Position numbers and translations under genes: made by a program. The notes below the pieces were generated by a model. It ran no database searches and was not told the origin of the DNA. It saw only the letters and a list, made by a program, of their open reading frames with translations. This document shows, piece by piece, positions 19,795-23,237 of a DNA stretch of 64,000 bases. Within the stretch, counting starts at the first letter, position 1. Each line of letters opens with the position of its first letter. The stretch comes from Victivallis lenta (GTDB lineage: Bacteria; Verrucomicrobiota; Lentisphaeria; Victivallales; Victivallaceae). The stretch lies in the NCBI RefSeq assembly GCF_009695545.1, contig NZ_VUNS01000015.1:62001-126000 (forward strand), given 5' to 3'.

Positions 19795-20009
19795 CCGCCG
19801 AGTAAAACGCGACAGGATGGCGGCCCGCCGCCGGCAAAGAAAACGGCGGGCAAAGTCCATCCGGCACGCCATTGCCGTCATACTCCCCCCGCAATCGCAG
19901 AATCAAGCAATTCCGCGTTTTTCCCTCATCGGACCTCGAAGCCGTAGAAACCGGCACCGGCAGGCCCTGCGACGATCAAACAACTTCATGCGCGATTGCC
20001 GTTTCCGGT

Positions 20010-20038
20010 TTGACTTTTCGGTTTCGAGGAACTATGTT
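20010..20038 (+). promoter_or_regulatory. Promoter of the repeat-protein gene
   Basis: TTGACT (20010-20015), 17 bases, TATGTT (20033-20038). Transcription near 20045 would give a leader of about 260 bases containing the structured region 20124-20236. The earlier part of the 509-base gap 19795-20303 shows nothing I can name. Confidence 0.6.
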
Positions 20039-20123
20039 AAAATGAAAGTTTACCAGCCGGAAAGGATGTGAAACCGTAGAAACAAACTGAATCTGAACTG
20101 AAAAATTAAAATCGTAGAACGGC

Positions 20124-20236
20124 CCCGCAAGGAAACTAGCAATTTCAATCACGACGGCCGACTGCATGAAGTGTGTCTTCCTTTTAGGCACATTCCGTGT
20201 TTGTCGTCGTGTGGGCTTGCTAGTGCCTCTTGCGGG
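20124..20236 (+). ncRNA. Long structured leader RNA (multi-stem hairpin)
   Basis: Three nested stems are exact. CCCGCAAG (20124-20131) pairs with CTTGCGGG (20229-20236), CTAGCAA (20136-20142) with TTGCTAG (20217-20223), and CACGACG (20150-20156) with CGTCGTG (20205-20211). The stems are separated by asymmetric internal loops. Inside, GAA-g-TGTGTC can pair with GGCACATTC around a T-rich loop. The element ends 67 bases before the start codon of the repeat protein and lies in its predicted leader. I do not recognise it as a known riboswitch. It could be a cis-regulatory RNA, a small RNA or a mobile hairpin element. Confidence 0.6.
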
Positions 20237-20303
20237 ATAATCATTCGGGATGTGCCTTTTCATGTCCCGGAACCGAACGACAAAAAACAAACTGAGGAGA
20301 CAC

Positions 20304-23237
20304 ATGCACATGCAACTGGGATCACTGATTTTCAACTCAAAAGACAAATTCACGTTCCAATGGACCGCCGCTGCCGGCGCGGCCTCTTACCGTTTCAGCC
20401 TGATCGATGAACGCGGCAGTGTTGTCAAATCCGGAGTCGTCACGGGGGAAACTCATACGGAAACGATTCATAACCAAGATTTCTGCACATGGCAGGTGGA
20501 AGCGCTGGATGCGGCCGGAAACGTCATTGCCTCGGAGCGGAGTCCGGAAATCTGGTTCGGCGGCGAAGGAAAGGAGTGGTACGAAATTTCCGCCCTCTCC
20601 CCGAATCTGATCTGCATGGTTATGACTCAGGATTTCCACAATGACTCCGCGCCGTTGAACTACTACCTGGCGCATCCCGACAAGTACACCAGACCCATCG
20701 TATCGTTTCGCTGCAGCGATCCGTGGCCGAACCTCGCCCTTGATGACACCCTGCTGCTGATGGACGGAGAACTTTATGTGAAAAACGGCAGCCGGTATGA
20801 TTTTTACGGCACCCTAATGCAGAGCGAAAACATCTCCCCCCGGATGTCGGCCGATTCTTCCGGATTATTCAGCCTCAACACCACGGTTTACCGCTACTCC
20901 GGCGGCAGGGCGGTCAGACTGTTCACATTGCCCAGCTCCGGCGGCTGGCCCGAAATCTATTTCCTGAATTCGCAAATTGCCGTCACCGATTCCGGCGTCT
21001 GGCGGATTGCGGGGACCGAACCGGAACTGGCCGGAACATTCGATTTCCCCCTCCCCGATGCAGGCGAGCTGACGATTTCGGGGAAATATGCCGTTTCCTA
21101 CGGGTATGAAGGAGACAGCATGATCTCTTACCGGATCGACTCCCGGGGGAATGTCAGCCGCCTGCCGGATGTTCCCCTTTCGCTTCCGTCCGGTTACCAG
21201 GCGTCCGAAATCGACCTGCAGGGGAACCGGGTTGCGCTGCTGGCTTCGGATCAGGAAGGCGGCAACCGCCTTTCCGTCTACGAAATCTCCGGCGACATGT
21301 GGAAGCTGATCCACGAGCAGGCGATCAGCGGTTTCGACCTGACATTGTTCTGGAAGGACAACTCCACGGTCATGCTACGCGACCAGGCCGAAGACCGCCT
21401 GAGCTCCATCAGGCTGCCGGCGGATTCCGGGGCGGCTCCGATGGAGCCGGACAACATCGACGGACTCGCTGCGCAGGTCAAACAGTATTCCGTCACCGTG
21501 AAATGGAACAAATCGTCCATCCGGAATTGTACATACGAGCTTCTGGTCGACGGCCTGGGAAGCGTGGTGACGAAGTCGAACAAGTTCACCTTCAAGAACG
21601 TTCCGGTCGGCAGGTACTCCGGCAGCGTCCGCGTGATCGCTCCGGACGGAAACGCCGGCGAATGGAGCGAATCGTACACGGTCTCCGTGGCCGACGTGAC
21701 AGCTCCGAAGCTGGGGAAAGTGACGGCGGCAGTCAACGGCTACACCGGCGTAATCTCGTGGAACGGCTCCGACAATGTCGGCGTCGAATACTATGAAGTG
21801 CGCTGCGCCGGTCAGGTCAAAACCGCAACCGGAACCTCCGTGGAGTTCGACCATCTCGCTGTCGGCAAATATCATGCGGAAGTAACCGCCTTCGATGCGG
21901 CCGGCAATGCAAGTAAGACCGGCAAGGTGAAAATCACGGTCAGGGATGCCACTCCGCCGGAACGGGTGACCGGCCTTGCCGTTCCGGTCGTGGACGGCAA
22001 ATACAAGGCGACGCTCTTCTGGGACACCGGCGTGGACAACTCCGGCAAAGTGGCGAACTACGAAATCCTGCTCGACAACGGAAAAATCCTGAAATCGGGC
22101 AAGACCACATTGAACGTCAGCAACCTTTCGGTCGGTGAACACACCTATAAAGTCCGCGCCGTCGACAAGGACAAGAATGTCGGCGAGTGGAGCGAAGTTC
22201 AGACCTTCACCGTCAGGGACATGACCGCACCGACCTCGGTGAAGGCCAGAGCGACGGTCAACGGTTACACCGTGAGCTTCGCGCTCTCCGGCAAGGACAA
22301 CTCCGGCAGTATCGCCGGATACGTGGTTACCTGCGGCGACAAAAAGACTCAAACCACGACCTCCACCGCCGTTCTGAGCGATTTCGGAGTCGGCAAGCAG
22401 ACCGCCTATGTCGTTGCCTACGATGCGGAAGGAAACGCAAGCAGGGAAACCAAGGTCAGCTTCACGGTCAGGGATGCCACTCCGCCGGAACGGGTGACCG
22501 GCCTTGCCGTTCCGGTCGTGGACGGCAAATACAAGGCGACGCTCTCCTGGGACACCGGCGTGGACAACTCCGGCAAAGTGGCGAACTACGAAATCCTGCT
22601 CGACAACGGAAAAATCCTGAAATCGGGCAAGACCACATTGAACGTCAGCAACCTTTCGGTCGGTGAACACACCTATAAAGTCCGCGCCGTCGACAAGGAC
22701 AAGAATGTCGGCGAGTGGAGCGAAGTTCAGACCTTCACCGTCAGGGACATGACCGCACCGGGAAATGTCTCCGTCAAGGCGAAGGTCGAAGAAAACAGCC
22801 TGCTCCTGAGCTGGAAGACGCCGAAAGACAACGTCGGCGTGACCGGTTATATTCTGAAACACGGCGCCAATCTCGAACACTCCGAGTTCCTGGCGGCAGA
22901 TAAACTGGCCTTCCGGATTGACGGAATCGCCAAAGGGTCTTACCAGTATCAACTCATTGCCGTGGATGCGGAAGGCAACGAAAGCAAGCCCAAAAACGGA
23001 AAGGCAACGATCAAAACGGACCTTCCGACGGCGGAACTCAATCAGGAGCTCCCGGATGTGGCACAGCTTGCCGGGTTCGATTCCGGCGTACAGGCGATAG
23101 CGGGACTCGTGGATGATCCGCTGGCGTTCTGCCGCGCGCTCAGGCTTGACGCGGAACTGAAGCTCTCCGCTGCCGAACTGCTCGACCGTGCAGAGACCGG
23201 CAGACGGCCGGCGCCGCTATTCACCGCAGCCTCCTGA
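20304..23237 (+). CDS. Large fibronectin-type-III-like repeat protein
   Basis: A 977-residue protein. A region of about 370 residues that may form a propeller-like fold is followed by at least six FN3-like domains, with recurring DATPPERVTGLAVPV, YEILLDNGKILKSGKT and VRAVDKDKNVGEWSE, then a short unique tail. Two of the domains are copies of a 299-base duplication (see repeats). AGGAG precedes the ATG at 20304; the ATG at 20310 is also possible. No signal peptide is visible, although the domain content suggests an extracellular or surface role. Related hydrolases are absent from the immediate flanks, so function is unknown. Confidence 0.7.
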   Translation: MHMQLGSLIFNSKDKFTFQWTAAAGAASYRFSLIDERGSVVKSGVVTGETHTETIHNQDFCTWQVEALDAAGNVIASERSPEIWFGGEGKEWYEISALSPNLICMVMTQDFHNDSAPLNYYLAHPDKYTRPIVSFRCSDPWPNLALDDTLLLMDGELYVKNGSRYDFYGTLMQSENISPRMSADSSGLFSLNTTVYRYSGGRAVRLFTLPSSGGWPEIYFLNSQIAVTDSGVWRIAGTEPELAGTFDFPLPDAGELTISGKYAVSYGYEGDSMISYRIDSRGNVSRLPDVPLSLPSGYQASEIDLQGNRVALLASDQEGGNRLSVYEISGDMWKLIHEQAISGFDLTLFWKDNSTVMLRDQAEDRLSSIRLPADSGAAPMEPDNIDGLAAQVKQYSVTVKWNKSSIRNCTYELLVDGLGSVVTKSNKFTFKNVPVGRYSGSVRVIAPDGNAGEWSESYTVSVADVTAPKLGKVTAAVNGYTGVISWNGSDNVGVEYYEVRCAGQVKTATGTSVEFDHLAVGKYHAEVTAFDAAGNASKTGKVKITVRDATPPERVTGLAVPVVDGKYKATLFWDTGVDNSGKVANYEILLDNGKILKSGKTTLNVSNLSVGEHTYKVRAVDKDKNVGEWSEVQTFTVRDMTAPTSVKARATVNGYTVSFALSGKDNSGSIAGYVVTCGDKKTQTTTSTAVLSDFGVGKQTAYVVAYDAEGNASRETKVSFTVRDATPPERVTGLAVPVVDGKYKATLSWDTGVDNSGKVANYEILLDNGKILKSGKTTLNVSNLSVGEHTYKVRAVDKDKNVGEWSEVQTFTVRDMTAPGNVSVKAKVEENSLLLSWKTPKDNVGVTGYILKHGANLEHSEFLAADKLAFRIDGIAKGSYQYQLIAVDAEGNESKPKNGKATIKTDLPTAELNQELPDVAQLAGFDSGVQAIAGLVDDPLAFCRALRLDAELKLSAAELLDRAETGRRPAPLFTAAS
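21934..22232 (+). repeat. Direct repeat, copy 1, inside the FN3-like gene
   Basis: A 299-base unit identical to 22462-22760 except for one base, which changes ATLFWD to ATLSWD. The copies are 528 bases (176 codons) apart and in frame. Confidence 0.95.
22462..22760 (+). repeat. Direct repeat, copy 2, inside the FN3-like gene
   Basis: Second copy of the 299-base unit at 21934-22232, with one mismatch. The near identity at silent positions points to recent duplication or gene conversion, not protein-level selection alone. Confidence 0.95.

Follow-up and report, generated by a model that had tools for sequence, protein, structure and literature searches.

The hairpin located upstream of a large repeat-protein gene of Victivallis lenta belongs to a large family of leader RNAs, absent from Rfam, which precedes surface, DNA-modification and defence genes in about a third of the genomes sampled in its phylum, and whose sequence can fold either into one long hairpin or into a terminator-like hairpin that would probably switch the gene off. 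The element was examined in a 64,000-nucleotide window (assembly GCF_009695545.1, contig NZ_VUNS01000015.1, positions 62,001 to 126,000 of the forward strand), and all positions given below are those of this window. We consider a four-region attenuator the best reading of these data and hold it with fairly good confidence.

Results

Structure of the leader in the window

A preliminary description made from the sequence alone had placed a 113-base RNA with three exact stems of 8, 7 and 7 pairs, asymmetric internal loops and an imperfect apical stem between a good promoter and the start codon, and our analysis confirmed that this structure is real and that the stems are where they had been placed (Table 1), although P2 has 8 pairs instead of 7. 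The predicted minimum free energy (MFE) of 20124-20236 is -58.5 kcal/mol against a shuffled mean of -31.4 (sd 3.9, z -6.99), with 0 of 200 shuffles as good, and the stems were also recovered among the inverted repeats of the sequence (I9 and I11). The statement that no T-run follows holds for the stretch directly after 20236, but a T-run follows the 3' strand of an alternative hairpin that the preliminary description had missed, and in relatives that run is mostly T5-T8. Moreover, the 113-base interval is only part of the RNA, which also uses an upstream segment (about 20114-20123) and a downstream one (20242-20260), its main feature being that it is bistable.

Table 1. Positions of the leader RNA, its alternative pairings and the neighbouring signals in the window.
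Positions	Strand	Feature	Support
20010..20038	+	sigma-70-like promoter (TTGACT-17-TATGTT), presumed promoter of the leader; start site about 20045 (inferred)	both hexamers and the 17-bp spacing kept in the Victivallis relative (loci L012/L026) while the spacer diverged
20114..20124	+	region 1: upstream segment U, which pairs with 20156-20165 to close hairpin H1 (weak in this copy)	fold of the window copy; own against swapped partners across 74 copies
20124..20131	+	P1 5' strand (CCCGCAAG), pairs with 20229-20236 (8 bp)	folding, inverted repeats, covariation
20132..20146	+	H1 apex GAAA-[CUAGCAA]-UUUC: the conserved 'internal loop' sequences flanking P2	fold of H1; conserved in alignments A4/A5 and in the extended set
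20135..20142	+	P2 5' strand (ACUAGCAA), complementary to the H2 loop 20217-20224 (8 bp)	folding, inverted repeats, covariation
20150..20158	+	P3 5' strand, pairs with 20203-20211 (9 bp with one G-U)	folding, covariation
20164..20178	+	P4 5' strand, pairs with 20186-20200 (imperfect, apical)	folding, covariation
20186..20199	+	region 3: P4' strand (AGGCACAUUCCGUG); pairs with P4 in the long hairpin or with D (20246-20257, plus 20242-20243) in H2	inverted repeats, own against swapped partners, fold of H2
20200..20211	+	P3' strand; pairs with P3 or, in H2, with the P1' region 20231-20240	own against swapped partners, fold of H2
20213..20228	+	H2 apex GGGC-[UUGCUAGU]-GCCU; the loop is the P2' strand	fold of H2, alignment
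20229..20236	+	P1' strand (CUUGCGGG)	folding, inverted repeats, covariation
20246..20257	+	region 4: D (CGGGAUGUGCCU), 3' base of hairpin H2	inverted repeats, own against swapped partners, fold of H2
20257..20260	+	T-run directly after H2 (short here; T5-T8 in most relatives)	sequence of the window and of relatives
20247..20274	+	local hairpin of D with CAUGUCCCG, predicted when the long hairpin is formed; possible third partner of D	folding; a comparable hairpin is visible by eye in many but not all relatives
20294..20299	+	Shine-Dalgarno-like GAGGAG	sequence
20304..23237	+	downstream gene: 977-aa fibronectin-III/Ig repeat protein	open reading frame and protein analysis

The protein encoded downstream contains two almost identical copies of a stretch of about 100 residues (DATPPERVTGLAVPVVDGKYKATL...TFTVRDMTAP), a recent internal duplication, and shows no obvious N-terminal signal peptide by eye.

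Homologous leaders

A search of Rfam returned 0 matches in the window at the gathering cut-off and 0 at E values up to 10 in 20000-20320, which was one of the checks proposed in advance for the claim that the RNA is of no known class. A BLAST search with the leader found no second full copy in the genome itself, but two clear relatives in other genomes (81% and 75% identity), and these three sequences align with compensatory changes in P1, P2 and P3. A covariance model built from the three matched 21 of 137 genomes of the order. An improved model identified 8 copies in the window genome, seven of which were found only by the structure model, and matches in at least 123 of 388 genomes of the phylum, a lower bound since only 9 candidates were scored per genome. 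Full scoring revealed 13-23 copies in five genomes of one genus (here G189, G311, G147, G244 and G153), with up to 23 copies in a genome of 1.7 Mb. The named records comprise Victivallis, including the cultured Victivallis vadensis DSM 14823, other Lentisphaeria, Kiritimatiellae, and one contig each labelled Phocaeicola and Lachnoclostridium. The copies on the last two contigs (loci L116 and L115, respectively) are diverged and single in their genomes, and the L116 contig carries Bacteroides-like genes and an AAA ATPase/HNH pair by eye, suggesting possible transfer out of the phylum or mis-binning. In the closest Victivallis relative, a transposase-like gene (IS256-like by eye; L012 1841-2482) starts about 200 bases after the leader, apparently separating it from its former gene.

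The long hairpin is an evolved RNA structure

The absence of compensatory change in homologous leaders had been named beforehand as an outcome that would overturn the preliminary description, and the opposite was observed. On 25 copies all 38 pairs of the long hairpin (state A, P1-P4) change on both sides, 95.5% of cells are paired and slid controls give 30-47%, while on 87 aligned copies all 38 pairs covary, 92.9% of cells are paired, with 1143 double changes (shuffled 343, sd 19), against 39-48% when the partner is slid. The alignment was fitted to the structure, which inflates such counts, but the gap to the slid controls is very large. G-U outnumbers A-C about six to one (337 against 55 cells in state A, and 116 against 20 in P4':D), so the RNA of the gene's sense strand is the selected molecule.

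A second reservation raised in advance, that the sequence might be a copy of a dispersed hairpin repeat unrelated to the gene, was not borne out, since the 8 copies in this genome are highly diverged with pairing kept and precede different genes. A mobile repeat or recombination site (MITE, REP or attC-like) that merely looks like RNA could be considered because the element is multi-copy, some identical tandem pairs exist, and near-identical upstream segments plus leaders (91-98%) precede different genes in the locus pairs L045/L052, L028/L031 and L038/L048. In L038/L048 identity ends in the T-run. The three pairs suggest gene exchange just behind the leader, and a Ser/Thr-kinase-like gene (named by eye) lies next to the leader in L032, L038, L045, L046, L048 and L052. 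However, this reading is contradicted, and we regard it as very unlikely, given the divergence between copies of one genome and the strand asymmetry, which is against folding of the bottom DNA strand as in integron attC sites and mobile ssDNA hairpins. A linked integrase and conserved core sites were not searched for, although no integrase was evident by eye next to the element in the open reading frames read. In addition, the elements are followed by genes in the same orientation: a Shine-Dalgarno (SD) sequence plus an ORF of 80 aa or more within 250 nt is found downstream in 64% and in the divergent upstream direction in 19%. No hit was found in viral contigs (searched with an exact pattern) or in phage and plasmid collections (searched with the window copy only).

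Altogether, the interpretation of a complex structured leader RNA that is not a simple terminator and is of no known class was supported, with the addition that the element is tied to leaders in general and not to repeat-protein genes.

A second hairpin in the 3' half

In the window, AGGCACATTCCG (20186-20197), the 3' strand of the apical stem, is also complementary to CGGGATGTGCCT at 20246-20257 (inverted repeat I4), outside the interval originally described. Across 86 non-redundant copies the apical 3' strand pairs with its own downstream segment D at -18.06 kcal/mol on average, against -12.67 for swapped partners (sd of permuted means 0.31, a difference of 17 SD, with 0 of 5000 permutations reaching it). 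In the 74 copies with strong pairing, P4':D has a median of 12 bp, D starts a median of 3 nt after the end of the model, and a T-run of four or more follows in 78%, against 4% at random places in the same loci. The 3' half folded alone is a single hairpin (H2) in 74 of 74 copies (mean z -4.9, 95% below -2). Twelve of the 86 copies did not show strong P4':D pairing with the automatic choice of P4' and were left out of the analyses of D and the T-run, of the folded halves, of P3':P1', of H1 and of the pseudoknot considered below, so these figures describe the better-behaved copies, and the single-hairpin result is not independent of that selection. The base of H2 is P4':D, its middle pairs the P3' and P1' regions (own -8.4, swapped -6.0, sd 0.27), although this inner complementarity could partly follow from H1 plus state A, since only U and D are independent of state A. 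In copies like the window its apex is the conserved GGGC-[UUGCNAGU]-GCCU. The H2 of the window is -34.8 kcal/mol (z -4.96).

An H-type pseudoknot keeping P1-P3 while P4' pairs with D was judged sterically unlikely, since D starts a few nt after P1' while P4' lies some 25 bp away, and folding of the 3' half then gave the H2 explanation.

A matching hairpin in the 5' half

The 5' half has the matching design, with GAAAA-[CUNGCAA]-UUUUC at its apex and an upstream segment that pairs with the P4 side to form H1 (own -17.98, swapped -11.48, sd 0.38; strictly outside the element -14.28 against -9.73, sd 0.31; a control segment further upstream -9.0 against -8.1). H1 alone is only mildly more stable than chance (mean z -1.6, window z -1.1, and mean z -0.4 with a different cut of the 5' half), although its pairing covaries. 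The H1 and H2 loops are complementary to each other, and that complementarity is P2. The conserved 'internal loops' of the long hairpin are therefore explained as the apices of H1 and H2.

Discussion

The comparison across copies demonstrates that the 5' and 3' halves pair into one long nested hairpin, that the 3' half can instead pair with itself and with D to form a single hairpin followed by a U-run, and that an upstream segment pairs with the P4 5' side to close H1. H1 and H2 together (state B) exclude state A, and state A and H2 cannot coexist. What each state does is inferred from these pairings. State B would be the OFF form, because H2 plus the U-run is an intrinsic terminator in sequence and, in the clade where D carries the SD directly before the AUG, it would also block ribosome binding, whereas state A would be the ON form, letting RNA polymerase or ribosomes through, because it uses the H2 5' arm and leaves D and the U-run single-stranded. 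Transcripts, termination, expression and any signal-dependent change of readthrough were not measured, the U-run of the window is only four bases, so that termination here may be weak, and H2 has a much longer stem than typical intrinsic terminators. The complementary loops (CUNGCAA against UUGCNAGU) would let newly made H2 invade H1 and zip into state A. The mean predicted energy of state A is -66.3 kcal/mol against -52.7 for the two halves folded apart (5' half -15.5, 3' half -37.3), suggesting that free RNA should end in state A and that the default would be ON unless something holds the 5' half or speeds H2 formation. Whether this is a protein, a metabolite, a trans RNA, transcription speed or temperature was not identified.

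In 14 loci the start codon lies 3-7 nt after D, mostly with an SD-like GGGAG/GGAGG inside D, which could indicate a purely translational switch without transcription termination. We consider this possible but unlikely, because in the window and most Victivallis-type copies D lies well upstream of a separate SD, yet the U-run is kept, which points to transcription termination as the common theme.

The organization of this leader resembles four-region attenuators such as the E. coli trp leader (1:2, 2:3, 3:4), with an upstream hairpin (H1, 1:2), a long-range antiterminator (state A, 1+2 with 3+4) and a 3' terminator hairpin followed by a U-run (H2, 3:4), P4' covarying with both P4 and D. However, there is no sign of a leader peptide (uORF with SD in 13% of loci against 18% in shuffles), the antiterminator is the whole 5' half against the whole 3' half, and the elements are dispersed before unrelated genes. 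Plasmid antisense-driven attenuators (pT181, pIP501 class) also have two hairpins with complementary loops and arms and a conditional terminator before the gene, but here the 'antisense' hairpin is in cis on the same transcript and each copy carries its own private complementarity.

Riboswitch expression platforms share a terminator or SD-sequestering hairpin competing with an alternative fold, and a ligand-binding riboswitch, with P1-P3 and the conserved GAAAAC and GGGC/GUGCC segments as aptamer and P4/P4'/D as expression platform, would fit the conserved loops and the single-RNA architecture. This reading remains possible but seems unlikely, since there is no separable conserved aptamer beyond the hairpin apices, which account for the conserved loops, P2 itself varies freely, and the downstream genes share no pathway, which is unusual for one metabolite; binding of small molecules was not assayed.

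LoaP-controlled leaders carry an RNA hairpin plus an intrinsic terminator before long accessory operons (PMC12691694), and a processive antitermination element (RfaH/ops, LoaP or EAR), in which the long hairpin modifies RNA polymerase so that it reads through later terminators, was also considered. RfaH and EAR targets share the theme of the surface-glycan, PEP-CTERM, restriction-modification or defence genes found here. LoaP needs a small UNCG hairpin and a NusG paralogue, whereas here there is a bistable RNA of about 150 nt. We regard this alternative as possible but improbable, because the five copy-rich genomes have one NusG-domain (PF02357) hit each, so no specialised NusG is needed, although the window genome itself has two hits. 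Moreover, many targets are single short genes and the covarying terminator right at the element argues for local control.

The element works like an attenuator, which is a known kind of control, but is set apart by the self-complementary double-hairpin plan, the number of copies and the heterogeneous targets, and no description of such an RNA in Lentisphaeria, Kiritimatiellae or Verrucomicrobia was found in the partial literature searched. A more far-reaching possibility, which we put forward only tentatively, is that this leader is its own antisense RNA and represents a new class of regulatory RNA, in which two successive hairpins with complementary loops and arms recognise each other by loop-loop pairing and refold into a long antiterminator with a private sequence code in each copy, acting as a phylum-wide control of accessory surface, DNA-modification and defence genes in response to one as yet unidentified global signal.

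It appears to be an undescribed and very common regulatory RNA family in a group of gut and environmental bacteria where little is known about gene regulation, and since each RNA carries covarying evidence for two exclusive folds, switching can be tested directly. Among 74 first downstream proteins, 10 match PEP-CTERM, 3 are GtrA-like, 2 match acyltransferase 3, 1 MBOAT, several are glycosyltransferase-related, 2 are restriction-modification methylases (EcoRI and Eco57I type), 1 is a QatA/KAP ATPase, and several are zinc-ribbon proteins. These genes were picked by a simple start, SD and codon-bias score, so individual assignments can be wrong, but the targets point to common control of the accessory genome. 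A group of leaders in G189, a Kiritimatiellae-type genome (L124, L125, L129, L132 and L134-L136), share a further conserved GC-rich stretch (GGGCGCGUGUCUGUGGCGC-like) about 30-60 bases after D, before PEP-CTERM genes that start about 155 bases downstream, and in L134-L136, L124 and L139 D itself contains a small hairpin, AAAGGCG-GUG-CGCCUUU, a second possible terminator.
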